Source of the DNA: Cytophaga aurantiaca DSM 3654
GTDB taxonomy: Bacteria; Bacteroidota; Bacteroidia; Cytophagales; Cytophagaceae
Assembly: GCF_000379725.1 (NCBI RefSeq)
Contig: NZ_KB903662.1
Location: forward strand, 65,144 to 129,143
DNA: 64,000 nucleotides
Direction: 5' to 3'
In this document: in pieces, positions 9,990 to 37,480 of the stretch
How positions within the stretch are numbered: position 1 is the first letter of the stretch
Layout of the letters: every line of letters starts with the position of its first letter
Translations under genes and position numbers: made by a program
The notes under the pieces: model-generated
What the model was told of the DNA's origin: nothing
The model's input: the letters and a program-made list of their open reading frames with translations, nothing else
Databases searched by the model: none

Positions 9990-12329
9990 TTGTTTAGAAT
10001 TAGTCTAAATAATAGAGCTATCAAAAATCTCCCGACATATATAATCTTATTAATTACCCTTTTCGTTTCTTTTTCTGCTATTGCTCAGAAAGGAATCATC
10101 AAAGGGCAAGTTGTTGCAGATAGTTCGCAGCCTGTTGAATATGCTATGGTGTATTTGAAAGGAACGTCTTTGGGTACGGTCTCAGATGAAGAGGGGATGT
10201 TTTGTTTTACAAGCGTTACTCCGGGAACCTATACAATTGTTTTTTCACATGTAAATTTTCAGCCTGTTGAACAGACCATTATTGTTACAGCCGATCAGGT
10301 TACAGATGTTGTCATTCAAACAAAATCAAATCACGACGAGGTTGTTGTAACAGGTACACTAACTGAAAAAAATATTCAGGATTCTCCGATACCTGTTACT
10401 GTAATTACAGATGCTCAAATAAAACAAATGGGCTCTATGCGTTTGAGTGATGTCTTACAAGAGCAAACAGGTTTAGCTATTGTCAACGATCATGGAACCG
10501 GAATTCAGCTGCAAGGTTTTAATCCGGAATATACGATGATCATGATTGATGGATCCCCATTGATTGGAAGAACGGCCGGAACCTTTGACCTGACACGCAT
10601 TACAGTTGGTAACATCAAACAAATCGAAATTGTAAAAGGCCCTTCATCCAGTTTGTATGGCAGTGAAGCGCTGGCCGGTGTAATCAATATCATCACACAA
10701 GATCCTAAAGAAAAGACTGGTATTGGTTTGCGCACACGATATGGAACAAATAATACCGCAGACATTTCGCTTGATGGATTTATAAATACAAAACGTTTGA
10801 GCTATTCTGTTTTTGCAAACAGATACAGTACGTCGGGGTATGATCTCATTCCGGATACAGAAGATAAAACGGTTGCACCTTATCATAATTACACTCTACA
10901 GCAAAAGATCGGTTATCAATTCAACACGTGTTTAAAGGCTACCTTGTTTGCACGTGGATTTTATGAAAATCAAAATACCATCATCACATTTTCAGAGAAC
11001 GGAACAGACTACCGCGTAAATCAGGTAGGCAGTCAGTACGACTGGAACCTGCTTCCGCAATTGTCTTATGCGGTCAATCAGAAGACACGTGTTCTTGCAA
11101 AACTTTACTCGACCTATTATCATACAGATGCGATCATGACGAATACATACGATGGCAGTCTGTATGATGACAGTTATTTTAATCAAACATTCAACAGACC
11201 TGAAGCAATTGGTTACAGAACGTGGAATAAAAAAAATGAAACGATTCTTGGCTTAGGTGTTACGCTTGAATCAATTAATTCTACACGTTATACAGACAAA
11301 CAAAAATTCAACAGTACTTTTTATTACATACAACACGACTGGAAACCGACTTCGAAATTAAACATTGTCGGCGGTTTTAGATTTGATGCACATAGTGTGT
11401 ACGGTCATCAGTTAAGTCCGAAACTGTCGGTAAAATATGATGCAACAAAAACAATTTCTTTTAGAGCCTCTGTAGGTAAAGGATTTAAAGCCCCGGATTT
11501 TCGCCAGCTATATCTCAACTTCACAAACCCGGTTGCCGGTTACAGTGTATTTGGGTCGGAGGAGGTCTTGGCACAATACAACAAGCTGAACGACCAGGGA
11601 TTGATCGCACAAACATTTATAGATCCTACAACACTTGCGCCCATTACCGCAGAGCGTTCCATTGCTGTGAACATTGGTTGGTCGATGAAGGTGGGCAAGA
11701 AAATAAACTGGCAGTTCAATGTATTCCGAAATGACATCAGTAACATGATTGAAACGTCTGCCATTGCAATGAAAACAAATGGTCAATCGGTGTATACGTA
11801 TTACAATGTTTCGAAAGTATTTACAGAAGGTTTTGAAACAAGTGTTGAGGTCATGATGCATAAAAATTTAACATTCAGTGCAGGCTATCAATATCTGATT
11901 GCTAAAAACAAAGAAGTAATTGAAGATATTAAAGAAGGAAAATATTTTGCCCGAGATCCTTCAACGCTTGTAACATCTATGGTTACAGAACAGCAGTATG
12001 GAGGTTTGTTCAATCGATCCAAACACATGGCCAATTTTAAATTGTTCTATCTAAATAAGAAGAACGGTTGGAACGGCACAATCAGAGCCATATACAGAGG
12101 TCGATACGGTTTTGGAGACATGAATGGAAATTTAATTCTGGATGCAGATAATGAATATGTGAGTGGCTACTGGCTTGCAAATGTTTCTCTTGGTAAATCC
12201 ATCACTCCCTGGTTTAATCTTCAGCTGGGCGTAGATAATGTATTTAATTATACAAACCCTCAATACATTTCATCTATTCCTGGAAGATTGTATTACACAT
12301 CCATTCAACTAAAGATCCATAAAAAATAA
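9990..12329 (+). CDS. TonB-dependent outer-membrane haem receptor (HmuR-like)
   Basis: Outer-membrane active transporter, likely for haem given the downstream genes. Order: signal peptide (IILLITLFVSFSAIAQ), a carboxypeptidase-regulatory-like domain (about 35-115, GIIKGQVVADSS), TonB plug (about 120-230; EVVVTGTLTEKNIQDSPIPV, IQLQGFNPEYTMIMIDG, GPSSSLYGSEALAGVINI), then a beta-barrel to the C-terminus. GKGFKAPDFRQLYLNF corresponds to the FRAP-box region of haem receptors. The start is unclear: the longest frame begins at TTG 9990, but that is at the predicted transcription start, and no ATG/GTG/TTG follows before the mature domain; ATC at 10020 would give a good signal peptide (MKNLPTYIILL). 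First gene of the hmu operon, 7 bp before the HmuY lipoprotein. Confidence 0.92.
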   Translation: MFRISLNNRAIKNLPTYIILLITLFVSFSAIAQKGIIKGQVVADSSQPVEYAMVYLKGTSLGTVSDEEGMFCFTSVTPGTYTIVFSHVNFQPVEQTIIVTADQVTDVVIQTKSNHDEVVVTGTLTEKNIQDSPIPVTVITDAQIKQMGSMRLSDVLQEQTGLAIVNDHGTGIQLQGFNPEYTMIMIDGSPLIGRTAGTFDLTRITVGNIKQIEIVKGPSSSLYGSEALAGVINIITQDPKEKTGIGLRTRYGTNNTADISLDGFINTKRLSYSVFANRYSTSGYDLIPDTEDKTVAPYHNYTLQQKIGYQFNTCLKATLFARGFYENQNTIITFSENGTDYRVNQVGSQYDWNLLPQLSYAVNQKTRVLAKLYSTYYHTDAIMTNTYDGSLYDDSYFNQTFNRPEAIGYRTWNKKNETILGLGVTLESINSTRYTDKQKFNSTFYYIQHDWKPTSKLNIVGGFRFDAHSVYGHQLSPKLSVKYDATKTISFRASVGKGFKAPDFRQLYLNFTNPVAGYSVFGSEEVLAQYNKLNDQGLIAQTFIDPTTLAPITAERSIAVNIGWSMKVGKKINWQFNVFRNDISNMIETSAIAMKTNGQSVYTYYNVSKVFTEGFETSVEVMMHKNLTFSAGYQYLIAKNKEVIEDIKEGKYFARDPSTLVTSMVTEQQYGGLFNRSKHMANFKLFYLNKKNGWNGTIRAIYRGRYGFGDMNGNLILDADNEYVSGYWLANVSLGKSITPWFNLQLGVDNVFNYTNPQYISSIPGRLYYTSIQLKIHKK
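9993..10009. promoter_or_regulatory. Palindromic operator TTTAGA-N5-TCTAAA at haem receptor promoter
   Basis: TTTAGA (9993-9998), ATTAG, TCTAAA (10004-10009). It starts 5 bp after the -7 box, so a bound protein would cover the transcription start. The match to 9230-9246 extends beyond the palindrome (AATAATA follows both). Confidence 0.7.
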
Positions 12330-12964: not shown

Positions 12965-14299
12965 ATGAAAAAAAAATTACACGCCATCTTATTCATAATG
13001 GTGTCTGTATATGCGTCAAACGGACAAACATTTAACAATACATATACTATCTCTGATCTTGCAGCTACAAAAGGAACGAATAAATTTACGTTCTTTAATT
13101 TCACTACAGGAACTGAAGTTGCAGTTGCAGATTCAGCAACAGCAGCCTGGGATATTGCATTCAGTGGTACAACAATAATTTTTAACGGTGGAGTAAAAGG
13201 TCCAAGCACAGTAGCTGCTCAATACGTTACTCCGTCTACATTTGATGCAATTACAAAAGCACCTGAAACAGGTTACACATTAACTATTTTAGGTGGTTCC
13301 GGAAGCTGGTATACCTATTATCCGGGTGCTGATTTCAGCGGTCCACACACAATTTTACCAATCGAAGGTAAAATGATCGTTGCAAAATTGGCGAACGGAA
13401 GATATGTAAAGCTTCAGATTTTAAATTACTATCAGGGTGCACCTACTGATGTACCTACTACAGGTGCTCCATACGCAGGAGTTGGTAAATACTATTCATT
13501 TAAATATGAGATATCAAATGCTGCGGCTGAATTAAATACTACCTATGCAGCTTCTGATTTTGCTGCAACGAGAGGCACTGGTAAATTCACCTACTTTAAT
13601 TTTACAACCGGTGAAGAAGTAGCGGTAGAAGATTCTGCAACCACAAAATGGGATATTGGTTTCAGCGGTACAACGGTAATATTTAATGGTGGTACAAAAG
13701 GCCCGGGTTCAGTAGCTGCTCAATATGTTACTTCAACATATGATGATGTTACAGAAGTACCTGCTTCAGGTTATGCATTGAATGTTGTAAGCGGATCAGG
13801 AAGCTGGTATACATACTACCCGGGAGCTGCGAATGAAGGTCCGCATACAATTGTACCGATCGAAAATAAAATCATCGTTGCTAAATTGTCGGCTACAAAA
13901 TATGTAAAAGTTCAGATCTTAAGTTATTACCAGGGTGCACCGACAAATGTACCAACTACAGGTGCTGACTATACAGGAGTTGGAAAATACTATGCATTCC
14001 GTTATACACTAATGGATGTGGTTGCGGAAGAAATAGCAACAGGTGTGTTAACTGCAGCTACCAAAACAATTTCTATTTATCCAAACCCGATCTCATCTAC
14101 ATCGGCTGACTTAACTATTGGTTCAGAGATCAGCGCTGGAACAGTAAAGATTATGGATTTAGTAGGTAATCAAGTTTATACTGGTTCTGTTACACATTCA
14201 AACATGCAGTTAACAAATTTGAATCTGACACAAGGTATTTATGTAGTTGTGTTGGAATCGGATGGTATGGTATACCAACAAAAATTAGTCGTTAAATAA
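12965..14299 (+). CDS. Tandem HmuY-domain protein exported by T9SS
   Basis: 444 residues. Signal peptide MKKKLHAILFIMVSVYASNG. Two HmuY-like domains follow (about 22-185 and 190-350); each has KFTFFNFTTG / KFTYFNFTTG, ADSATAAWDIAFSGTTI / EDSATTKWDIGFSGTTV, NGG-KGP, GSGSWYTYYPGA, GPHTI-P-E, KYVKVQILSYYQGAP and GKYY-F-Y. The C-terminal 75 residues (ISIYPNPISSTSADL ... GIYVVVLESDG ... QKLVVK) are a type A T9SS sorting domain, so it should be secreted or attached to the cell surface. It is a fused relative of the preceding lipoprotein, 34 bp downstream. Likely an extracellular haem scavenger with two sites (inference). Confidence 0.87.
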   Translation: MKKKLHAILFIMVSVYASNGQTFNNTYTISDLAATKGTNKFTFFNFTTGTEVAVADSATAAWDIAFSGTTIIFNGGVKGPSTVAAQYVTPSTFDAITKAPETGYTLTILGGSGSWYTYYPGADFSGPHTILPIEGKMIVAKLANGRYVKLQILNYYQGAPTDVPTTGAPYAGVGKYYSFKYEISNAAAELNTTYAASDFAATRGTGKFTYFNFTTGEEVAVEDSATTKWDIGFSGTTVIFNGGTKGPGSVAAQYVTSTYDDVTEVPASGYALNVVSGSGSWYTYYPGAANEGPHTIVPIENKIIVAKLSATKYVKVQILSYYQGAPTNVPTTGADYTGVGKYYAFRYTLMDVVAEEIATGVLTAATKTISIYPNPISSTSADLTIGSEISAGTVKIMDLVGNQVYTGSVTHSNMQLTNLNLTQGIYVVVLESDGMVYQQKLVVK

Positions 14300-28792: not shown

Positions 28793-28981
28793 TTTCGTAG
28801 TACTTATTTCTCCAAAACAGGAAAAGCATTTTACTTTCCCTTTTTGTTGATACAAAGTAACAGTGGAAAAAGAAGATTCGGATTGATAAATGACAAGAAA
28901 GAGACTTGACAAATGTCAAGAGGAGGGAATTTTGAATTATGACTTATAAATTATGAATTGTTCGAAAGGAGGAGAGGATTT

Positions 28982-29053
28982 CGACCCCAGCGGGGTCGCA
29001 TGTCTATAGAAAAAATAATATAGATATATTATACGCACAATCCCGCAGGGATT
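28982..29053. repeat. REP-like palindromes at left end of the cassette region
   Basis: CGACCCC-agc-GGGGTCG (28982-28998) and AATCCC-gca-GGGATT (29039-29053), with an AT-rich spacer. Same style as 26910-27082. They lie in a 318-bp gene-free stretch (28793-29110) which also holds the pirin promoter and a GAATTATGA-type word at 28933-28957. Confidence 0.55.
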
Positions 29054-29110
29054 TTATTAATGTGATATGTTAAAATCAACATAATAAAAATATGGGGTAG
29101 GTAGCTTTTA

Positions 29111-29632
29111 TTAAATTTTATTTAAGTCCGTTAACATTGTATTCAAGATATTGTTATGCTCTGTCGTTATCTCGCCATCATACTGTCTATTTAAAATCAA
29201 CTGTCGTTGGATCGCAATTTTCGCAAGATCTTTTAATTCAGTATCAACCTGACCGGATATTTTTATCTGTCCAAAAGCCGCGGCAATGATTGTATTGTCC
29301 ATACAAGTAATAAAATGAGGGTCTTCTTCTTGCAGTTTTTTTAACGTTGCTTCGTCAAGATTTTTTGAGCATCCCTCACTCACATACTTAAAGCCAAATT
29401 CATCAATTGTCTTAAACAACCATTTAATAATTCCTTTTCCTTTTTTCTCCTGATAGAATTCTTCAAGGTTAAACAATAAGTCAGCTCCATCGTCATTACC
29501 AAACGGAGAAAAGTCGTACGTGCAGTCATAATAAAAATCTGCCGTCATGTTTTTTACAAAGTTCGGATGGCTTGTCTCTTTCGCCAACGCGTCACCTTCG
29601 GGGTCGTCATAATAAAATTTTTTTCCAAACAT
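29111..29632 (-). CDS. Uncharacterised acidic cytosolic protein
   Basis: 173 residues, MFGKKFYYDDPEGDALAKET, acidic in the first half (DDGADLLFNLEEFYQ), with two cysteines (SEGCSKNL, FITCMDN). No signal peptide, membrane helix or motif that I recognise. It is the last gene of the four-gene unit, 15 bp after the next one, so co-transcribed. Small acidic proteins in such accessory units are often immunity-like or antitoxin-like, but nothing in the sequence proves that. Confidence 0.75.
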   Translation of the reverse strand: MFGKKFYYDDPEGDALAKETSHPNFVKNMTADFYYDCTYDFSPFGNDDGADLLFNLEEFYQEKKGKGIIKWLFKTIDEFGFKYVSEGCSKNLDEATLKKLQEEDPHFITCMDNTIIAAAFGQIKISGQVDTELKDLAKIAIQRQLILNRQYDGEITTEHNNILNTMLTDLNKI

Positions 29633-29647
29633 AACTTGTGCACTGTT

Positions 29648-30049
29648 CTATTTCCCTACCCTGGTTTTATACTTAGAGTCAAAAGACTTTATATCCATCA
29701 TCCAATATTCGATCCTGTCACGTATTTCAAACCTATTTGCACAGTCAAATTTTTCTATCTCAAACATCTCGTCTATTGCCATCCAGCTAAGTTTAGCGTA
29801 ATATTTTCCATTGATATCGTTACCTGGCAACCAACTTATATCAATATTAAAATGATTTGTTTTTGGAATTGCATATTCTCCTTGTTCGTTTACGAGACAT
29901 TCCTGAATCCACAATACATCGTCCGTAAATCCCTCGTACCAATTATTTATAAAACTTCTTCCGAAATCAGCTTGTGGGTCTGAGTCATATAGTTTATTGT
30001 CTAAGACTACCCAGCCATAAGGTATTCCGATTCTTAACAACTCTGCCAT
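29648..30049 (-). CDS. Uncharacterised Trp-rich protein, accessory
   Basis: 133 residues with a high share of aromatic residues (IPYGWVVLDN, FINNWYEGFTDDVLWIQE, IEYWMMDIKSFDS). Predominantly polar and cytosolic. The size, acidity and aromatic content recall immunity proteins of polymorphic toxin systems, but I cannot assign a family. 35 bp downstream of the TPR protein gene and 15 bp upstream of the 29111 gene on the same strand. Confidence 0.7.
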   Translation of the reverse strand: MAELLRIGIPYGWVVLDNKLYDSDPQADFGRSFINNWYEGFTDDVLWIQECLVNEQGEYAIPKTNHFNIDISWLPGNDINGKYYAKLSWMAIDEMFEIEKFDCANRFEIRDRIEYWMMDIKSFDSKYKTRVGK

Positions 30050-30084
30050 ATTTGTATTTGTTTGAATAATGCAAAACCTGAGTT

Positions 30085-30927
30085 CTATAATTCTTCTATC
30101 ATTTTGTAAAAATCTGTTTGCTTAATTTCTTTGATGGCTTCATTCTGGTTAAATTTTCTCTTCTCATCATAGTTATAGTCACTGGGAACTTCAATTTCTG
30201 CGTTCATGAATTTGAAGTAGTACGTTTGGTAGATATAATTATCTTCACGTTTAAATGTCTTCGAGTACATATTTGTCAACGCAAGATCGAGGTCTTTTTT
30301 AACATTTTTCTTTTTCTTCAGTAAACTTTTAAGCTCAGATAAAACGCTTGTATTGTCTGTGAGTGTTATGAAAACAGCAGGTAATAGAGATTCAATTGCT
30401 TTGTCGTCGTTGTCCAGTTTCTGGTATAGGTCAGCATATCTTAAAGCCGTTTGAAGTTTGTTTTCCTCAAGTGCATTGCCGCAAAAATGAAGATAGGGGT
30501 ATAGCGTATCGGACAATGCGAAGTAATGCAAAGCGGTTCCGTATGCCTTCTTATTGTAATATATCTCGCTGAGAATTTCACTTGCTCTGTGCCGGTAGTT
30601 CGTGTATGGATCAGCCATGATATCACCACCTAAATTTTCTTTTTCGTTGAAGTTGCTTTCCAGAATAGATTTGAAAATCACAATTGAACTGTCGAATTGC
30701 TTGTCTATGAAATACAGGTATCCCAGATTGTAAAAAGCCCTTGGATACAAGGTGTTTTTGGGGTAGTGTTTTACAAAGTATTGAAATGAAATGATTGCAT
30801 TCTTATTGTCTTGTGCTTTTGCATACTTTTCTCCTTCGTCAAAATAATCGGACGCCATTTTTTGACCGTACAAGTTTTGACTTGAAAGACTGCAAACTGT
30901 AAGAAGTATAAAGAATAGTTGCCTCAT
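30085..30927 (-). CDS. Exported TPR-like protein
   Basis: 280 residues. Signal peptide MRQLFFILLTVCSLSSQNLYG. The first half has TPR-like helical pairs: YFDEGEKYAKAQDNKNAIIS with FVKHYPKNTLYPRAFYNLGY, then FDSSIVIFKSILES. The second half is charged and helical, ending with IKQTDFYKMIEEL. Its start overlaps the stop of the upstream propeller-like gene by 4 nt (ATGA), so both are translated together. The cell-surface or periplasmic TPR protein may scaffold partners; no specific function visible. Confidence 0.75.
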   Translation of the reverse strand: MRQLFFILLTVCSLSSQNLYGQKMASDYFDEGEKYAKAQDNKNAIISFQYFVKHYPKNTLYPRAFYNLGYLYFIDKQFDSSIVIFKSILESNFNEKENLGGDIMADPYTNYRHRASEILSEIYYNKKAYGTALHYFALSDTLYPYLHFCGNALEENKLQTALRYADLYQKLDNDDKAIESLLPAVFITLTDNTSVLSELKSLLKKKKNVKKDLDLALTNMYSKTFKREDNYIYQTYYFKFMNAEIEVPSDYNYDEKRKFNQNEAIKEIKQTDFYKMIEEL

Positions 30928-32552
30928 ATCGTTAATGTGTATTGGTAAAATGAAAGTCCTTTGATACCAAAAAATACCAACTCTTTTCCATCAAAGTAAC
31001 AGCTATCTTCGAGTATCTTCTGAATTCCATCAACTTCTTTGAAGATTTTGTTATTGATATTTATCAGAAATTTATTTTTCCCTGTTTTTTGAATTGCAAA
31101 AAAACCTTTATCCGAAAAATTTCCGTAAACTATTTCTCCTATTTTCTTTTCTTCAAAAGAACGATTCGGTGCAGGTCTCATTGGTTTTGAAAACACACCA
31201 TTATAAACAAGATAACCTGCCGTATCAATCACAATATAAAGTAGACTGTTGCCAGTACTTGCTTCTCCTCTTACAAAGTCACGTGAAAGAATGTCAGAGT
31301 AAGGATGAACAGAAAAATATGTTGAATTACTGAATGCAGGGAATAATAGTTTGTCATCTTGATACAAATATGTTGAATCGTCTGTTTTGAAATAGTGTAA
31401 CGATACACCTATTGGGCTTATATATATTGGTGTTGCTCTTACATCATATTTGCTGATAGGGTCCGGATCTTGTTTTCCATTTACAAATTTGTAGAGGAAA
31501 AAGTCTTTCAATCCGTATAAAGAAAAATTTCCGTTTCCATCAAGTGATGGGTAGTATATTTTTTCGAATGAATAATCGAACACTTTTCCATTTACATTGA
31601 TTTTATTTGTTTCATTTTCCTTGTACGTAAATAAATAATTTTTCTTGTCAACAATGGTAATGTTCGAAATAGATCTTAGATTTTTATGCAAGGTATTATT
31701 GATTGCAATGTATTGAGGTCCATTATCGTCTCCGCTGTAATAGTAAGCACCATTTTCCTTGAGATCACAATACCAAACTGTTCGAACATGTTCAAGAACG
31801 GTATCTTTCGTGTGAATAAAGAACATGAAATTGTATTTCTTGTCTTCTCCAGGCAATGGATATCTCCCTTTGCCGTAGCAATAATCGCCATTGTCATTTA
31901 TTTTTAACTGCGAAAACGTACTTGTAGACGAATCTATTTGCTTGCCATTTACATACAATCTATGCAGTGAATTATTCTCAACGGCAAAAATGTAATTTCC
32001 GTTATTACTAAAACTCATCCAGTCACTGGATTCAAAATATTTTTTCTTAGCGGCAAATGAACTTGCTTTTTTTGAATTGATGATCATTTGAACATTAGAG
32101 AAGGTGTCGATTTTTAGTTTCAATTCTCCGTCAATGTAAATAGCAATACTATCTTTCAGTAAGCATGGAATAGCTATATGCTTTGAATTTGCTGATTCCG
32201 GGTGTCTGAAATGGGCAATATCAGTTCCGGTGATTGGTCCAAAAAGTGTAGTGGATGAACATTGATAAAATTTTTGGTTTACATCTTTCTTGCTTGTGAA
32301 TTGAGAAACAGAACTGCCCCAATTAAATTTTAAAGGCTGTGTTTTGCCGCATTTGCTGATGAAATAGTAATTGTCCTTGTTCTTTATTTCAAAAAGATAA
32401 TCTCCATTAATGTCAAAGCTCATGGATTCTGCTTTCAACAACGTTGAATCTTTTGTATCTGTAAGGATAAGACGTTCAGTTAACGTTTGACCGTTAACAA
32501 TGCTGCTGTTAAGAAGTATGATGAAAAATAGTATTGCTGTTGCTGTTTTCAA
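30924..32552 (-). CDS. Exported beta-propeller-like protein, TTG start
   Basis: I place the start at TTG 32552, giving MKTATAILFFIILLNSSIVNG, a good signal peptide; the frame is open to an ATG at 32630, but that stretch is repeat DNA (32607-32739) and adds implausible basic residues. The mature part has recurrent short strands with aromatic/NG turns (NNGNYIFAVENNSLHRLYVN, NDNGDYCYGKG, LKENGAYYYSGDDNGPQ, DGNGNFSLYGLKDF), which suggests a WD40/PD40-like propeller. About 542 residues. Ends in a 4-nt overlap with the TPR gene. Confidence 0.75.
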   Translation of the reverse strand: MKTATAILFFIILLNSSIVNGQTLTERLILTDTKDSTLLKAESMSFDINGDYLFEIKNKDNYYFISKCGKTQPLKFNWGSSVSQFTSKKDVNQKFYQCSSTTLFGPITGTDIAHFRHPESANSKHIAIPCLLKDSIAIYIDGELKLKIDTFSNVQMIINSKKASSFAAKKKYFESSDWMSFSNNGNYIFAVENNSLHRLYVNGKQIDSSTSTFSQLKINDNGDYCYGKGRYPLPGEDKKYNFMFFIHTKDTVLEHVRTVWYCDLKENGAYYYSGDDNGPQYIAINNTLHKNLRSISNITIVDKKNYLFTYKENETNKINVNGKVFDYSFEKIYYPSLDGNGNFSLYGLKDFFLYKFVNGKQDPDPISKYDVRATPIYISPIGVSLHYFKTDDSTYLYQDDKLLFPAFSNSTYFSVHPYSDILSRDFVRGEASTGNSLLYIVIDTAGYLVYNGVFSKPMRPAPNRSFEEKKIGEIVYGNFSDKGFFAIQKTGKNKFLININNKIFKEVDGIQKILEDSCYFDGKELVFFGIKGLSFYQYTLTI

Positions 32553-32606
32553 TGTTGTTGCTATTTTATGTTTGAACGTTCTTTTGGGGAATGTTATAAT
32601 GTGTGT

Positions 32607-32739
32607 TCTTAACGGTTTACGGCTTGGCAATGGTGAGGAATTTTATGCACTTCAGTTCAAATTATTACCGAAGTTGATTGGAATTCCCGAAGCTGAAATT
32701 TAGCAGTTCAGCTCCACTATTGCCTAACCGATGTTGTGC
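32607..32739. repeat. attC-like element A
   Basis: Left end TCTTAAC (32607-32613), right end GCCTAAC-CGAT-GTTGTGC (32722-32739). The arms GGCTTGGCAATGGTG (from 32621) and CACTATTGCC (32715-32724) are complementary in part, and an inner pair CTTCAGTTCAAAT / GAAGCTGAAATTT is weaker. It separates the 32749 gene from the propeller-like gene. Confidence 0.5.
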
Positions 32740-32748
32740 TTTTGTTTT

Positions 32749-33453
32749 TTATTTGCCAAATAGTTTATTCCAAAAACCACCATTTCCTTTAGGTTTTTCA
32801 GACTTTATAACTGTGGCAATATTCAATTCTGTGTCTTTTGTCAATTTGAAAATAGCATTGTACAAGGGAATTGCTTGTTGGAAAACTTCTTCTGTAGGAT
32901 TTAATGAGAAAAATTCATTATTGTTGTCCAGACCTATTGGGAAATTTGTTCTTTCATTCCACGCTTGCTCTTCAAGCACTGCTATAGAATTCATTTCCAT
33001 TTTTTGGTCAAAACTAATTCTTGATTTTTCAATAATTTGTTCTTCTAAATTTTGACCACCCAAGTTCAAAACGGTGTTTCTAAAAAAGTCTATTCCTTTT
33101 GCTGGTATATGTAGAAGGAAAAATTGAATTTTGTCTCCTTTCCGGTAAATATCAAGAACTTTAAAGTAACTGTTTGCATTTATCGTATGTAATTTCCACT
33201 TTTCAGTATCAGGATTTACTTTATATAAAGGTGCTGCTTTGTTTGTAGCAAATATAAATCTGCAATTTTTTGTCAGTTTACCTGCAAAGTCCGAAATATC
33301 TACGAATGTTTGAGAGCGAAAAATTTGTCCTACTTCATATTTGGAAATTTGGTCATCTGATAGTTGAGTATCCCTGTAATACATGGTTAGTCCAGAAAGA
33401 GTCCAATTGACAATTTCTTCTATTTGTTCATTCGAAAATTTAAAATCTTCCAT
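32749..33453 (-). CDS. Uncharacterised protein of a cassette unit
   Basis: 234 residues, MEDFKFSNEQIEEIVNWTLS, mixed alpha/beta, no signal peptide or membrane segment. A central region (CRFIFATNKAAPLYKVNPDT, YFKVLDIYRKGDKIQFFLLH) has alternating strands; the end KGNGGFWNKLFGK is a basic, glycine-containing tail seen on many small Bacteroidota proteins. Family not recognised. Single gene in its unit, its stop 10 bp from element A. Confidence 0.7.
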   Translation of the reverse strand: MEDFKFSNEQIEEIVNWTLSGLTMYYRDTQLSDDQISKYEVGQIFRSQTFVDISDFAGKLTKNCRFIFATNKAAPLYKVNPDTEKWKLHTINANSYFKVLDIYRKGDKIQFFLLHIPAKGIDFFRNTVLNLGGQNLEEQIIEKSRISFDQKMEMNSIAVLEEQAWNERTNFPIGLDNNNEFFSLNPTEEVFQQAIPLYNAIFKLTKDTELNIATVIKSEKPKGNGGFWNKLFGK

Positions 33454-33487
33454 TTATTCTTAAGGTTTCGGTTTTTGTAAAATGGCT

Positions 33488-33505
33488 TCCTAACTATTGT
33501 TATAG
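33488..33505. repeat. Core-only junction between two cassettes
   Basis: On the minus strand CTATAAC-AATA-GTTAGGA (33505-33488): two cores of the kind that end the larger elements are only four bases apart, with no hairpin arms between. It lies 7 bp after the nitrilase stop and 34 bp before the next start. It looks like the product of arm deletion or of direct core-core fusion. Confidence 0.45.
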
Positions 33506-33512
33506 CCAGTTT

Positions 33513-34250
33513 TTATTTTGATTCTATTATGGTACTAATCCAGTGATTGTTTTCTTTTTTAGCAATTAATAGACCACATCCGGTTCCTATAAAGTGCGAT
33601 TTTAGCTCACCTTTATTTGTCCAAAATGCACTTTTCCCGGCTGATTCAAATTGATAAGATTTACCGCCATAATTTACCATCAAGATATTCATAGAATATA
33701 TTTTAGCATATTCTCTTAGCATTTCATATCCATCATTAATCCCATTTGGTGTATAAAAAATACTTGCTAAATATGTTGTACAGTTTACTTTTGATGCATT
33801 GTTCGGATGCACAGGATTAGCAATATCAGAACAGATTGCTAATGAAAATATCTCTTCTTTAATTTTTATTTGAGGATTATAATTTGAATTTGGTTCGAAA
33901 AAAAGCTCTTCACCTGAATGCAAAAACTGCTTTGTGTAAATCTCAACAGAAGTTTCAGGCGATATAATAAATGAGCAAATGTAAAGTTTATTATCAACTT
34001 GTAAAGGTGCACCAACAATTATTACTATTTTTCTCTTCTTTGCAAATTCTTTTAACCTATTTAGTCTAGGGTCATTAAGTTTAAAAGAATACTTTTCAGC
34101 TTCCTCTCGTTGGTATCCTGTCAATGATAGTTCAGGGAAGATGATTAATTGAGCATTGTTATCCGCTGCTAGCTCAATGAGTTTATAATGTTCTTCCAAA
34201 TTTTCATTAATACTATCCTTTGGTATAGTTTGACCAGCTGCTATTATCAT
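33513..34250 (-). CDS. Nitrilase-superfamily carbon-nitrogen hydrolase
   Basis: 245 residues with the Glu-Lys-Cys catalytic triad: Glu in IIFPELSLTGY (about residue 40), Lys in IYTKQFLHSGEE (about 105), Cys in AICSDIANPVH (about 138). MIIAAGQTIPKDSINENLEE is the canonical first strand and helix. Predicted to hydrolyse an amide or nitrile; the substrate is unknown and differs from the omega-amidase at 53696 by sequence around the Cys (CSDIANP against CYDLRFP). Sole gene in its cassette-like unit, which makes a catalytic function in mobile cassettes likely. Confidence 0.85.
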   Translation of the reverse strand: MIIAAGQTIPKDSINENLEEHYKLIELAADNNAQLIIFPELSLTGYQREEAEKYSFKLNDPRLNRLKEFAKKRKIVIIVGAPLQVDNKLYICSFIISPETSVEIYTKQFLHSGEELFFEPNSNYNPQIKIKEEIFSLAICSDIANPVHPNNASKVNCTTYLASIFYTPNGINDGYEMLREYAKIYSMNILMVNYGGKSYQFESAGKSAFWTNKGELKSHFIGTGCGLLIAKKENNHWISTIIESK

Positions 34251-34287
34251 TATTATGATTGTATACTTGAGTTGTTTTCAAAATTGG

Positions 34288-34448
34288 CTATAACGGTTAG
34301 TATTGTTTGTTGATGCAGGGGTTAGTGATTATATCTTCCCACAAACACAAACGAAAGTATGCTTTAATATACAAATTATTCATGCGGGTTTGACGCACTG
34401 AAATCTCCTTGGATGCGAACCTGCATTAACAACAATACATTGTTAGGC
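34288..34448. repeat. attC-like element B
   Basis: Ends CTATAAC (34288-34294) and GTTAGGC (34442-34448), the latter a perfect GTTRRRY core. Inner arms: TATTGTTTGTTGATGCAGG from 34301 pairs with CCTGCATTAACAACAATA ending at 34437. Between the nitrilase start (38 bp) and the stop at 34455 (6 bp). Confidence 0.55.
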
Positions 34449-34454
34449 ATAGTT

Positions 34455-34685
34455 TTATCTTTTTCCTTCTATAAATTCAATTGTCGCATAGTGTGTAACA
34501 AATTTCGATAGCTCAAAAATTTGTTCAACGTCATTGGTAGTTGATACCTTAGCAAAAATAACTTCCCAGTCTAACATCTCTTCAATTTTGAAATTTGTCC
34601 CATTTGTGGAATTGAAATCGTTTATGACTTTTATCAACCAATCTTCGTCATTGCAACCAATGTTAAAAGTTATTTTTTCTCCCAT
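34455..34685 (-). CDS. Uncharacterised 76-residue protein
   Basis: MGEKITFNIGCNDEDWLIKV followed by INDFNSTNGTNFKIEEMLDW and FVTHYATIEFIEGKR; acidic, cytosolic, alpha/beta. Its ATG overlaps the end of the 34670 gene by 16 nt, so both are translated as a pair; the stop is 6 bp from element B. No family recognised. The overlapping pair of a larger and a small acidic gene is a layout also used by toxin-antitoxin and effector-immunity pairs, but there is no motif to support that. Confidence 0.7.
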   Translation of the reverse strand: MGEKITFNIGCNDEDWLIKVINDFNSTNGTNFKIEEMLDWEVIFAKVSTTNDVEQIFELSKFVTHYATIEFIEGKR

Positions 34686-35254
34686 TTTACTTCTATAATA
34701 GAGTCTAATACGATTTTTCTCTTTTGATTGAAAGTTTTGAAAAATATCAAGTTTCCATCAATAATTCGATAAGATATATTATAATCTGGATGAACAAAAG
34801 ATGTTTTGTAATGATACTCTTTGATTCCTACAAAATTTTCAATTTGAAGTTTATCTTCATTGTTCATTACGGCAAAAACTCTATCGAATTGAGATGAATC
34901 TGATAAGCCTATTAATGCAAGATGAAAATTTATCTTCTTTCCATTTATTAATTCAATTTCTTTAGATGATTTTAAAAAAGCATCCTGTTGATTACTTTCA
35001 AAAAACACTTTCTCGATTTTCCTCTTTTGTCCAGTAAGCTTAATCTTATTGGTTTCTAAAAATAATTTATACGAATACTGTCTCCCGAGTTCATAAAAAG
35101 TGTTTATTTTTTCAGGGTCAATTTTTCCTATAAATAAATTCTCATTTAGTCGATCTTGGTGAAAATTGAAATTCTCCTTATAGATATTCTCAATTTGATC
35201 AAGAGCACTTTTGAACAAGATTGGTTTCTCAATATACAGATTAACTGGTATCAT
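34670..35254 (-). CDS. Uncharacterised cassette protein
   Basis: 194 residues: MIPVNLYIEKPILFKSALDQ, then ENIYKENFNFHQDRLNENLF and KVFFESNQQDAFLKSSKEIE; no signal peptide, no membrane helix. Lys/Glu-rich and mixed alpha/beta. It begins 22 bp from element C and overlaps the 34455 gene at its end. I cannot assign a family. Confidence 0.7.
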   Translation of the reverse strand: MIPVNLYIEKPILFKSALDQIENIYKENFNFHQDRLNENLFIGKIDPEKINTFYELGRQYSYKLFLETNKIKLTGQKRKIEKVFFESNQQDAFLKSSKEIELINGKKINFHLALIGLSDSSQFDRVFAVMNNEDKLQIENFVGIKEYHYKTSFVHPDYNISYRIIDGNLIFFKTFNQKRKIVLDSIIEVKWEKK

Positions 35255-35276
35255 TGTATGTCCTTAGAAATTGTGC

Positions 35277-35440
35277 CCATAACGGTTGTAGTGGCTTTTG
35301 TTGTAGGCTTTAAAAGAGCTGCGCTTTCCTCAGCACCAAACCTGCATAACCTTTTAAAATTAATCAATTTGTGCGGTCTTATAAGCACCAATCACAATAT
35401 TAACAAAGAAGCCTACAATAAATGCTACTAAGTGTTAACA
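35277..35440. repeat. attC-like element C
   Basis: Ends CCATAAC (35277-35283) and GTTAACA (35434-35440). Inner arms GTAGTGGCTTTTGTTGTAGG (from 35288) and GCCTACAATAAATGCTAC (ending near 35428) are complementary with few mismatches. A central GCACCAAACCTGCA / GTGCGG pair adds a second stem. Clearly homologous to element D. Confidence 0.6.
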
Positions 35441-35447
35441 ACAGGTA

Positions 35448-36368
35448 TTATTTACATTTCCCATCTAAAATTAATATTGCGTTAGAATACTCTTCTGTTA
35501 ATAGAAAACTTGGACTCTTAACTGCTTCATTGAAATATTCGCATGCTCTGATATTATTTTTAATTTTCATTGAGCTATCAATTAAAAAAAAATATGTATC
35601 ACCATTATCAATTACTCCTACAGCTTTTTCTAAGTCAGGTATTGCTTTATTAAAATCCCCTAATTTGTAATAACAAATCCCTCTTCCTTTGTATCCTAAG
35701 CCTGAAGGATTAATTTTAATTGATTTCGTGTAATAATTAATTGCTTCTAAATACTTTTGTTGTTTAAATGAAATTCTTGCCATATCATCATAATACGCAA
35801 AATCATAACCACCTAGGCTATATGCTTTTTTAAAGTCCAAAATAGCTAAATCATAAAGTTTTAAATCTTCGTAAATTAATCCACGATAAAGATATCCATC
35901 TAAACTTAATAGATTAAGATTTATATATATAGAAATATCATCTAAAGATTTTTTTGAATCAATAAATCGTAAAAAATTTGATCTTTCTAAATATGATTCG
36001 GATAAAAAACTATCAAGCAGGATTGACTTATTTAAATCATTTAAATATTGAACTGTATCAAATCCAGAATAAGATATAGTTATTATGGAATCAATACGAT
36101 AAGGGGTTTGTATTTTTTCATAGTTCACTGATTCAGTTCTAGGAATTCTTTTTAAACAAAATGCCCTAAAAAAATATGCAAAACCATCATTTGGATTTAC
36201 ATTAATTAATGAATCCGATTTTTCATATCCAATAGCATATAATTTTGAATCAGACGAATCAAAAGAATAATAAGAATCAATTAGATAGGTATAATCTTCC
36301 TTTAAGGTTTGAGAATACCCCCTAATAATTAAAAAAGAATGTAATATTATTAGTAAACGTATTTTCAT
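35448..36368 (-). CDS. Exported TPR protein of a cassette unit
   Basis: 306 residues from ATG 36368: MKIRLLIILHSFLIIRGYSQ is a signal peptide. The frame runs to 36527 upstream, but that is element D. TPR repeats are evident: LDGYLYRGLIYEDLKLYDLA, YDDMARISFKQQKYLEAINY, GYKGRGICYYKLGDFNKAIP, each about 34 residues, with the conserved Y/G-A-pattern. Exported, so likely periplasmic or surface scaffold. AT-rich even for this region. Starts 6 bp from element D and stops 7 bp from element C. Confidence 0.82.
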   Translation of the reverse strand: MKIRLLIILHSFLIIRGYSQTLKEDYTYLIDSYYSFDSSDSKLYAIGYEKSDSLINVNPNDGFAYFFRAFCLKRIPRTESVNYEKIQTPYRIDSIITISYSGFDTVQYLNDLNKSILLDSFLSESYLERSNFLRFIDSKKSLDDISIYINLNLLSLDGYLYRGLIYEDLKLYDLAILDFKKAYSLGGYDFAYYDDMARISFKQQKYLEAINYYTKSIKINPSGLGYKGRGICYYKLGDFNKAIPDLEKAVGVIDNGDTYFFLIDSSMKIKNNIRACEYFNEAVKSPSFLLTEEYSNAILILDGKCK

Positions 36369-36374
36369 ACTTGT

Positions 36375-36561
36375 TGCTAACGTTTGTGGTTGCATTTGTT
36401 GTAGGCCTTGAAAGCGCCGAAGCTTCCTTAGCACCGAACCCGCACCATTTATCCCGCCCTTCAGCGGGAACCTATTAAATTTAATTATTTCGTGCGGACT
36501 TGAAAGCACCGCTATTAATATTATCAAAGAAGCCTACAATTAATGCTACTTATTGTTAGCT
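36375..36561. repeat. attC-like element D
   Basis: Ends TGCTAAC (36375-36381) and GTTAGCT (36555-36561). Arms GTGGTTGCATTTGTTGTAGG (from 36386) and GCCTACAATTAATGCTAC (ending near 36549). It shares long stretches with element C (GTTGTAGGC, TTAGCACCGAACC, CGTGCGGACTTGAAAGC, AAAGAAGCCTACAAT) and has an extra CCCGC/GCGGG hairpin near 36453-36470. Confidence 0.6.
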
Positions 36562-36567
36562 GCCTTA

Positions 36568-37125
36568 TTATTCGTATTCTTTTACATCGTCAATAAGAAG
36601 TTTGTTGTCCTTAGAAATAATTGTAATGTCTCGCACAAAATTTGTTTTCCAGCGAAGATCACGAATAACAACATGGAAAATTTGAGCAGTGTCCCCCAAA
36701 GACTTTAAAAGTGTGCAAGTAGGAATATCTATTGTTCCATTGTCCTGTGTTGGGATAAAAAAACCACCTTTACCTACAAACTTGGTGTCATAAATCGATT
36801 TCCATTTCTCATGAAATTCTTCTTCTGTCATCTCTTCACCATATTCTAAATTTATCGCGTTTTGCTTATAGTTATAATATTTATCAGTCAATGCTAATCG
36901 CATATTATTATAAGCTACTTTTCCATCTTCACTATTTACATAGTCGATAATAACTTTTGTTAACCAGTCTTTTATTAGTGTCGTGTCTTGGATGCTGTTA
37001 GTCTTTTTTATAGCACTGTCTTGTTTTGATGAAGTCGTCTTAATTTGGTCAGACTTTGCTGAAAAATCCGTCTCACAACTAAACAATACAAATAAAATTG
37101 TTGGTATAATTAAAACTTTTATCAT
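36568..37125 (-). CDS. Predicted lipoprotein of a cassette unit
   Basis: 185 residues, signal peptide MIKVLIIPTILFVLFSC with a lipobox cysteine at 17. A Ser/Lys-rich linker (SAKSDQIKTTSSKQDSAIKK) leads to a globular part with LIKDWLTKVIIDYVNSEDGK and FVGKGGFFIPTQDNGTIDIP, then VIRDLRWKTNFVRDITI. Exposed at a membrane, function unknown. Its stop is 6 bp from element D, its start 24 bp from the terminal TGCTAAC core. Confidence 0.8.
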   Translation of the reverse strand: MIKVLIIPTILFVLFSCETDFSAKSDQIKTTSSKQDSAIKKTNSIQDTTLIKDWLTKVIIDYVNSEDGKVAYNNMRLALTDKYYNYKQNAINLEYGEEMTEEEFHEKWKSIYDTKFVGKGGFFIPTQDNGTIDIPTCTLLKSLGDTAQIFHVVIRDLRWKTNFVRDITIISKDNKLLIDDVKEYE

Positions 37126-37162
37126 AATCTATATGGTCTCAAATATGGCTGCTAACTAGTGG

Positions 37163-37186
37163 ATACATGCACCTACTTGCATGTAT
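37163..37186. repeat. Small hairpin at the right end of the cassette region
   Basis: ATACATGCA (37163-37171), six bases, TGCATGTAT (37178-37186): a perfect 9-bp stem 6 bp after the last TGCTAAC core. It could be the shortened arm of a terminal recombination site. Confidence 0.55.
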
Positions 37187-37199
37187 ATTTCATATGTTG

Positions 37200-37255
37200 A
37201 TTCGGTATCCGTTTCATTAAACGTATATATACGTTTAATGAAACGGATACCGAAT
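37200..37255. repeat. 56-bp perfect palindrome
   Basis: The 28 bases at 37200-37227 are followed with no loop by their exact complement at 37228-37255 (ATTCGGTATCC ... GGATACCGAAT). Such a long uninterrupted palindrome is prone to cruciform extrusion and deletion. It lies in the 355-bp gap between the lipoprotein and the Crp-type gene. The rest of the gap, 37256-37480, shows no gene; it should hold promoter elements for the lipoprotein only on its left side. Confidence 0.85.
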
Positions 37256-37480
37256 TTTGAATTATATTGATTTTCAGATAAATCAAGCGTGTATAAATAT
37301 CTATTCTTTTGCCTTGAAAAACAACCGGTGCAATAAATTAATTGGGGATGTTTGCTATTGATATAATCCTGTTCGTGTTATCGCGGGTGCATTAATTTAG
37401 ATAAAAAGTTTGTCGGCGAATTGTACAAATACATGTGTGTAATATAAGCATGTCTCATGTAGTAATACCGATTCACAATT

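Follow-up and report, generated by a model that had tools for sequence, protein, structure and literature searches.

The window, a 64,000-nucleotide stretch of contig NZ_KB903662.1 of Cytophaga aurantiaca DSM 3654, contains a block of co-oriented genes punctuated by long palindromic separators. Its features are as follows; for the separators S1–S5, plus denotes the modelled strand.

28930..37475, no strand: inserted block (cassette array plus attI), not present at the corresponding intergenic position in two genomes of the genus
29111..30927, minus: further co-oriented distal genes (ORFs of 280, 133 and 173 aa), inside the insertion
30924..32630, minus: first distal gene of the inserted block (568-aa ORF), inside the insertion
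32607..32739, plus: S1, divergent attC-like site (R2 34.1 bits, E=8e-4)
32749..33453, minus: cassette 5 gene, 234 aa, no family found
33488..33505, plus: S2, collapsed core (CTAAC TATT GTTATAG) without stem-loop, by eye
33513..34250, minus: cassette 4 gene, 245 aa, carbon-nitrogen hydrolase family (PF00795, E=8.8e-16)
34288..34448, plus: S3, attC-like site of cassette 3 (R2 123 bits)
34455..34685, minus: cassette 3 second gene, 76 aa
34670..35254, minus: cassette 3 first gene, 194 aa
35277..35440, plus: S4, attC-like site of cassette 2 (R2 165 bits)
35448..36368, minus: cassette 2 gene, TPR protein, ~306 aa
36375..36561, plus: S5, attC-like site of cassette 1 (R2 154 bits)
36568..37125, minus: cassette 1 gene, 185 aa, no family found
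37153..37199, minus: attI-like site, comprising the first cassette border GCTAAC and the conserved block TAACTAGTNNATACANGCACCTACTTGCATGTATATTTCAT
37200..37255, no strand: perfect 28+28 palindrome beyond attI

Direct reading of the letters bore out the five separators and terminal core that the initial annotation had placed here, as well as its statement that the cassette genes all lie on the minus strand. By our reading the cores fall at TAAC 32610 and GTT 32733 in S1, CTAAC 33490 and GTT 33499 in S2, TAAC 34291 and GTT 34442 in S3, TAAC 35280 and GTT 35434 in S4, and TAAC 36378 and GTT 36555 in S5, with the end core of the array at AAC 37154. S2 retains the core only, its loop having been lost; a by-eye comparison of S2 (GTTATAGCCAGTTTT) with the start of cassette 4 (GTTATAGCCAATTTT) gives 14 matches in 15 bases. 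S4 and S5 are 78–81% alike, and the folding of S3 and S5 outperforms 197 of 200 shuffles. On the distal side the 568-aa ORF probably has its true start nearer 32571, and no recognised sites lie between the ORFs at 29111..30927. A phage or ICE integrase element, which would be a single element between one pair of att sites with phage or transfer genes, was considered and rejected: the array consists of many independent units, and neither its ORFs nor a family search revealed phage or transfer genes in it.

The separators between 32607 and 36561 are attC-like hairpins. A covariance model (R1), the first to be built, was seeded with four sites (three of them from the window); at E<1e-6 it detected 25 sites in the genome, mostly on other contigs. 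A second model, R2, recovers S1 as well, at E=8e-4. Sites in this genome are mostly 130–200 bp long. Since window sites went into the seeds of both R1 and R2, own-genome E-values are partly circular; the held-out loci discussed below are not. An early hand-written hairpin scanner was discarded as too lenient, since shuffles gave as many matches. The architecture is that required of attC: an imperfect hairpin with R''(..AAC) and R'(GTT..) cores and two stems split by an asymmetric loop, here with conserved G.T mismatches. Across 68 sites 89.4% of paired cells hold standard pairs, 334 cells are changed on both sides (105 in shuffles), and double changes occur in 17 of the 18 pairs of the main stem. 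Stability favours the modelled strand over its complement by a narrow margin only (41 of 68 sites).

Each site is also tied to its own cassette. Complementarity between the 1L core and the start of the same cassette is a criterion for integrons, and it is met: 47 of 78 units match at six or more of eight bases, against 3.3% at random, and of the 31 sites in the held-out loci, 16 have an exact 10-mer no more than 3 kb away on the side predicted, and none has one on the opposite side (chance expectation ~0.003 per site). The window units do not all obey this rule, S1 and S3 being poor. The longest ORF runs in the expected direction in 53 of 54 units, as the criterion of genes in one direction with the site just past the stop demands; repeats elsewhere sit among cassette-like genes, and their isolation from such genes, which would have told against the initial annotation, was not what we found.

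The borders of the units are exact. An 800-bp cassette, 100% identical in two arrays of one complete genome, stands beside attI in one and beside another attC in the other; recurring whole cassettes have base-exact AAC/GTT borders. Platforms bearing attI are 97–99.6% identical up to the core and then continue into different cassettes; in the duplicate platforms of genomes G007 and G053 identity stops at the core. Cassette 2 of the window recurs together with its site in genome G001, at 89% DNA identity. The comparison that the initial annotation had called for – gain, loss and movement of units at AAC/GTT borders – was run and gave a positive answer, which satisfies the integron criterion of cassette turnover with exact core borders. 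Moreover, two relatives of the same genus lack the whole block 28930–37475 at this position: the window flanks 28922|37481 adjoin at 14056|14165 in one (L135), and nearly adjoin at 11869|11614 in the other (L136).

At its right-hand end the array abuts an attI-like site. The TGCTAAC core at 37150 had been correctly positioned, but it is the edge of this attI-like block and not another attC. The genome has three copies of attI, one of them on contig C11 beside a 473-aa tyrosine recombinase; attI adjoins the integrase and the cassettes begin at attI, as in a canonical integron. The C11 integrase locus is syntenic with genome G002, where attI and the last 47 integrase codons are kept and the cassette set is different. 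In G001 no attI was recognisable by sequence. A search of the genome contig collection for the exact attI 23-mer gave no match, and because own-genome records were possibly excluded this shows only that attI is not widespread. The palindrome at 37200..37255 resembles, by eye, the stretch that precedes the C11 integrase gene (L012:2629-2682, L019:8770-8830), and may therefore be a remnant left after loss of an integrase gene – a suggestion based on sequence resemblance alone.

The absence of an integrase, as first reported, holds at the window locus and fails for the genome, in which a matching integrase lies beside the same attI on C11. Its catalytic residues (R329, K354, H418, R421, H444, Y453) are invariant in 16 integrases, so that the RKHRH...Y criterion is met. 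The criterion of an IntI-specific domain is not: the linked integrases lack the ~40 residues that contain it, the span from KDR to HxxR measures 58–67 residues in the Bacteroidota integrases versus 101–103 in ten classic IntI, and residues 181–245 of IntI4 align to only 22 residues. This domain is reported, in PMC8138268 (citing MacDonald 2006), to be essential for integron recombination. Nor is the profile criterion met, for no protein of the C. aurantiaca genome passes the cut-off of the IntI profile TIGR02249 (best 201.6 bits, cut-off 265). The best-scoring profile for the C11 integrase is NF040815 (208.9 bits, cut-off 220). The linked Bacteroidota integrases form a clade separate from IntI and carry N-terminal HARP/XPB-like modules, and in some loci an ssb gene adjoins the integrase. 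For the predicted fold of a C11-integrase homologue, the best solved-structure match is 2a3v, the IntI4 integron integrase bound to attC DNA. A search of phage records for the integrase returned only distant integrases.

The association between site and integrase extends across the phylum. A covariance model found sites in 66 of 296 Bacteroidota genomes and 44 of 140 genera, a lower bound; arrays are located in Cytophagales, Flavobacteriales and other groups, may be plasmid-borne, reach ~75 kb in the largest case (G007), and include toxin-antitoxin genes (ParE) among their cassettes. In 16 order-level loci the sites lie beside homologues of the C11 integrase on one side and in one orientation, and in 12 held-out, independently fetched named loci all 31 of 31 site matches show the same side and orientation; the non-Bacteroidota loci of the held-out set gave no site matches. 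The exception is a pair of related plasmids (Flagellimonas, Arenibacter), whose integrase is shorter and has the sites on its opposite flank. Counting GTT-cored unit ends without any model gave 38 downstream of the integrase, where 7.2 were expected, and 6 upstream, where 8.6 were expected.

Could the repeats be something other than recombination sites? They are palindromic, intergenic and just 3' of genes, as might be terminators, RNA structures or a dispersed repeat family whose link to the integrase is incidental. Yet an Rfam search gave no match, every repeat bears a 7-base tag particular to the unit it belongs to, the boundaries of cassettes and attI coincide to the base with cores, and side and orientation relative to the integrase are fixed in 28 loci; this reading was already strongly disfavoured, and we give it next to no credence. 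If the sites are real, the enzyme acting on them might still be XerC/XerD or some other recombinase of the cell, with the linked integrase moving only the platform. XerC/D-like recombinases are indeed present in the genome, and the window array, the C4 array and all arrays of G002 lack an intact adjoining integrase. We nonetheless consider it extremely unlikely: in genome after genome arrays start at attI directly downstream of a C11-type integrase, and contigs of draft genomes end sooner on the array side of it, 19 to 2.

It is also conceivable that the window holds a fragment of a canonical integron (a CALIN), with cassettes that owe their formation and movement to an ordinary IntI of outside origin. 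The AAC/GTT core, the hairpin site, the co-oriented cassettes and the own-tag complementarity are all as in integrons, but no gene of the genome reaches the IntI cut-off, and the linked integrases, phylum-wide, all lack the IntI-specific stretch and fall in their separate clade, which makes this origin very unlikely.

We hold with high confidence that this genome carries an integron-type cassette system with three attI platforms, the window array being one of them. The integron-like interpretation of the initial annotation is supported by exact borders, the empty locus and the integrase–array linkage, all of them observed, as are the structure and covariation of the sites, the tag rule and the attI copies; recombination itself is inferred, without an assay. 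The other possibility it had raised, a different cassette mobilisation system, is partly right, in that the integrase is not a canonical IntI. In its workings the system resembles an integron, yet it does not pass one of the tests that define canonical IntI integrons.

In this system a cassette is a mobile unit with one gene or a few, starting with GTT and a 7-base tag and ending in a long attC-like hairpin, the last core of which carries the complement of the start tag. The site is presumed to fold as single-stranded DNA, with the plus strand in the window corresponding to the bottom strand relative to the genes. Under the mechanism that we propose, a Bacteroidota tyrosine recombinase would then join the site to attI beside the first cassette, or to another site, by exchange within the shared GTT/AAC core, the crossover position being inferred. 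The cognate enzyme is probably the C11 integrase, which we infer to act in trans on the platforms of the window and of C4, where the local integrase gene has apparently been lost. More tentatively, and without claiming that the balance of evidence yet favours it, we suggest a separately evolved class of integron in which recognition of folded attC has moved from the IntI-specific insertion to the N-terminal HARP/XPB-like DNA-structure-recognition modules, with an SSB encoded on the platform assisting in some lineages, and which forms a major gene-capture route of the phylum Bacteroidota.

Integrons are a main engine of bacterial gene capture. Sedentary chromosomal integrons (IntI/attI/attC), such as the Vibrio cholerae superintegron, share with the present system an integrase beside attI, co-oriented arrays of small genes, hairpins that combine AAC/GTT cores and a second stem with an asymmetric inner loop and a variable terminal loop, a 1L core that complements its own cassette start, and toxin-antitoxin cassettes. 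They differ from it in that the Bacteroidota integrase lacks the IntI-specific domain, has N-terminal modules and is encoded, in nearly all loci, upstream of attI and co-directionally with the cassettes; the length of the C. aurantiaca sites, the G.T mismatches and the ssb genes that adjoin some of the integrases are further differences. IntegronFinder requires the IntI-specific domain, which would explain why surveys find almost no integrons in Bacteroidota. The integrase family is Bacteroidota-wide and standard integron searches would be expected to miss it; a widespread gene-capture system thus seems to have gone largely unnoticed.

With at least two attC-like sites and no adjoining integrase, the window meets the definition of a CALIN (an attC cluster without integrase; IntegronFinder, PMC9024848), but unlike a CALIN it keeps attI, and its cognate integrase lies on another contig of the genome. 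The best match of the C11 integrase, NF040815 ('site-specific tyrosine recombinase/integron integrase' at NCBI), relates it to the integron-like and Xer-like simple tyrosine recombinases (Smyshlyaev et al. 2021, PMC8138268), in whose integron-like subgroup the IntI insertion is not fully conserved. In the literature searched, which included no preprints and few subscription journals, we found no description of insertion-less members running attI/attC cassette arrays nor, in work on integrons and HARP, of the present Bacteroidota clade doing so. Integrons reported from Bacteroidetes were earlier integrase-only elements (In0) and then a complete canonical integron in Salinibacter ruber (PMC9024848); the present arrays belong to the same phylum, but are found in Cytophagales, Flavobacteriales and further groups, and have a different integrase.

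The system offers a way to test how folded DNA is read by a recombinase that has no IntI domain. With such sites in about a fifth of the sampled Bacteroidota genomes, it also represents a large store of unread cassettes. PADLOC assigned no defence family to the window cassettes; it gave one weak nuclease match in a cassette of contig C4.

The separators proposed in the initial annotation do lie where it placed them, and every one opens with TAAC and closes with GTT on the plus strand, as had been claimed. As attC-like sites they stand (S1-S5, 32607-36561); the supposed terminal core does not, being instead the edge of an attI. It adjoins a block of about 45 bp present in three copies in the genome (in the window and on contigs C4 and C11), always at that end of an array where the genes start. 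From 37154 the window array proceeds leftwards, in the direction of its genes:

36568-37125, minus strand, cassette gene, followed by site S5
minus strand, TPR gene, followed by site S4
minus strand, two overlapping genes, followed by site S3
minus strand, carbon-nitrogen hydrolase gene, followed by the core-only site S2
32749-33453, minus strand, gene, followed by site S1
leftwards to about 28930, minus strand, more co-oriented genes without recognised sites

S4 and S5 are 78-81% identical over their length, and for both S3 and S5 the native fold outdoes that of 197 of 200 shuffled sequences.

These sites belong to a structured family with strong covariation. The initial annotation had proposed searching the genome for further copies, and a covariance model built from four sites recovered 25 at E<1e-6, mostly outside the window's contig: an array on contig C8, with others on C4, C11, C19, C20, C35 and in the window. 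Across 68 sites, including matches from relatives, 89.4% of pairs are standard, doubly changed cells number 334 (against 105 in shuffles) and double changes occur in 17 of 18 stem pairs; sliding the pairing partner along destroys the covariation. A TAACG/TGTTA core leads through an asymmetric inner loop into an 18-bp stem topped by a large variable loop, with two conserved G.T mismatches (64 and 60 of the 68 sites), and this is the layout of integron attC: R box, unpaired spacer, L box and variable terminus. Folding energy gives only a weak strand preference (41/68). Site length varies widely across the class, from the roughly 60-bp sites of Hymenobacteraceae; those on Rufibacter tibetensis plasmid 1 (L229:11573-14841), at just ~60 bp, are close to classic attC size.

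A tyrosine recombinase, which the initial annotation had also suggested seeking, was found beside the attI copy on C11: the end of its gene (473 aa) lies about 30 bp beyond the block. Since C8 and C11 overlap (by the first 1106 bp of the latter) and are adjacent by synteny with the related genome G002 (one contig, 4,433,218 bp), they constitute one integron, with integrase, attI and some 18 sites. Past the attI of the window and of C4 lies palindromic sequence that, judged by eye, is similar to that upstream of the C11 integrase; from this we infer, provisionally, loss of the integrase gene from both platforms. The genome's three attI platforms (C4 and C42 versus C11) have a single intact linked integrase between them, which suggests that platforms are served in trans.

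A critical issue is whether the units are cassettes. An integron cassette begins with bases complementary to the 1L core of its own site. Here, the bases following a site's GTT matched the start of their own unit at a mean of 5.27 of eight positions (six or more in 47 of 78 units); between the two flanks of one and the same site the mean was 3.04, and for random comparisons 2.72. Among loci fetched independently, 16 of 31 sites had an exact copy of the 7-base tag plus AAC no more than 3 kb away on the side predicted, and none had one on the other. Counting without any site model gave 38 GTT-cored units downstream of integrases (7.2 expected) and 6 upstream (8.6 expected). Repeats elsewhere without cassette-like genes would have told against the initial annotation; the longest ORF has the same direction in 53 of 54 units, usually beginning no more than ~40 bp from one site and in many cases stopping no more than ~13 bp from the next. 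Large chromosomal integrons carry toxin-antitoxin cassettes, and likewise unit 8 of one array (L048) combines a ParE toxin and a putative antitoxin.

Comparison of relatives bore out the expected presence and absence: the window block is missing at the same place from G002 and from a second relative, G001, in both of which its neighbouring pirin-like and Crp-family genes lie side by side or almost so. The window's TPR cassette is present with its site in G001 (89%). At the C8/C11 locus both flanks are colinear with G002, which retains attI and 47 integrase codons (81% identical); no cassette gene is shared at 1e-8. That turnover respects the TAAC/GTT borders, as predicted, is evident from two other Bacteroidota genomes. 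Two arrays of the complete genome G007, separated by about 4 Mb, carry an 800-bp cassette with 100% identity from TAACGG to GCCTAAC; past it comes attI in one array and another attC in the second. The attI-integrase regions of these arrays, 97% identical, part ways precisely at AAC. G053 has a pair of platforms (integrase, ssb, attI) with 99.6% identity, which ends directly after AACAAGTT; their first cassettes differ. A cassette common to G007 and a genome of a different genus, G013, is 90% identical from the TAAC border.

The Bacteroidota integrases have all catalytic residues invariant and lack the IntI-specific domain of canonical integrons: KDR-to-HxxR spacing is 58-67 residues, against 101-103 in ten classic IntI, and in a tree insertion-bearing IntI form one group (100/100) apart from them. 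The predicted structure of an Algoriphagus homologue best matched IntI4 bound to attC (2a3v, E=5.5e-18). Many homologues carry one to three N-terminal modules of ~55-70 aa. Pfam HARP matched two integrases (6e-5 and 1e-3, both under the curated cut-off), a profile search with the module ranked the HARP structure 4o66 first (E=0.088), and the module, confidently predicted (pLDDT 94), retrieved 4o66 and XPB recognition domains among its top weak fold matches, none at E<=0.001. Given the role of HARP and XPB domains in recognising DNA structure, this weak evidence suggests a hairpin reader. An ssb gene directly follows the integrase at five loci in four genomes (PF00436, 1e-29 to 1e-35 in the four proteins tested). 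Its position between integrase and attI or array (L079:9365-9730, L080:10462-10827, L084:10573-10833, L086:9601-9933, L088:3422-3754) suggests that the platform includes a function for handling single-stranded DNA.

The logic of the system is that of integrons, although its enzyme lacks a defining IntI feature. Units, tags, attI, borders and integrase linkage are established at the level of sequence; without activity data, the mechanism is inferred. The site would be used in folded, single-stranded form, the integrase would insert cassettes at attI and excise them between sites, and the C11 enzyme may serve the window platform in trans. IntegronFinder requires the IntI-specific feature (PMC9668308), and in Bacteroidetes has yielded only integrase-only elements and one Salinibacter integron (PMC9024848). 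The NCBI family NF040815 already bears 'integron integrase' in its name, and a 2021 recombinase survey noted integron-like enzymes in which the insertion is not fully conserved (PMC8138268); no account of their arrays came up in the literature searched, which excluded preprints and most subscription journals.

The system is widespread. At 16 order-level loci the integrase is followed, beyond its 3' end, by sites in a single orientation, and in a held-out test of 12 named loci (among them Winogradskyella ursingii, Algoriphagus ornithinivorans, Seonamhaeicola aphaedonensis, Flavobacterium aciduliphilum, Algibacter onchidii, Aquiflexum and Pontibacter) side and orientation agreed in 31/31 matches; the non-Bacteroidota loci of that set gave zero site matches. 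At a threshold of 1e-4, sites turn up in 66 of 296 Bacteroidota genomes, from 44 of 140 genera, which is a lower bound. One G007 array spans ~75 kb with 57-58 sites, a second ~38 kb. In draft genomes the contig end is nearer on the array side (19 versus 2), as is expected of repeats. Plasmid examples come from Rufibacter tibetensis, Pontibacter kalidii, Chryseobacterium SNU WT5 and Persicobacter; matches to a second covariance model (R2, seeded partly with window sites) back the latter two, while the two Hymenobacteraceae arrays rest on gene layout, a few tag pairs and short ~60-bp sites, most of which R2 misses.

The exception is a pair of related plasmids, from Flagellimonas marinaquae (L228:7905-10819) and Arenibacter algicola (pSMS7, L231), with sites on the opposite, divergent side of a shorter integrase. 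The former has a DHFR-family gene bracketed by two sites, and erm(F) between sites and integrase. IS110-family transposases and group II introns target attC sites in classic integrons; the former lie in or beside three plasmid arrays (L226:14074-17856, L229:16785-17843, L232:12676-14031), one of which also has a group II intron maturase. The same N-terminal module is found in integrases from Spirochaetota (L167), Undinarchaeales (L169) and Firmicutes (L164) MAGs, on contigs that end soon after the gene, and binning error is possible. A shorter relative (326 aa, 40% identity), in about eight near-identical copies on contig C1 of a 9-Mb genome (G022), looks transposon-like.
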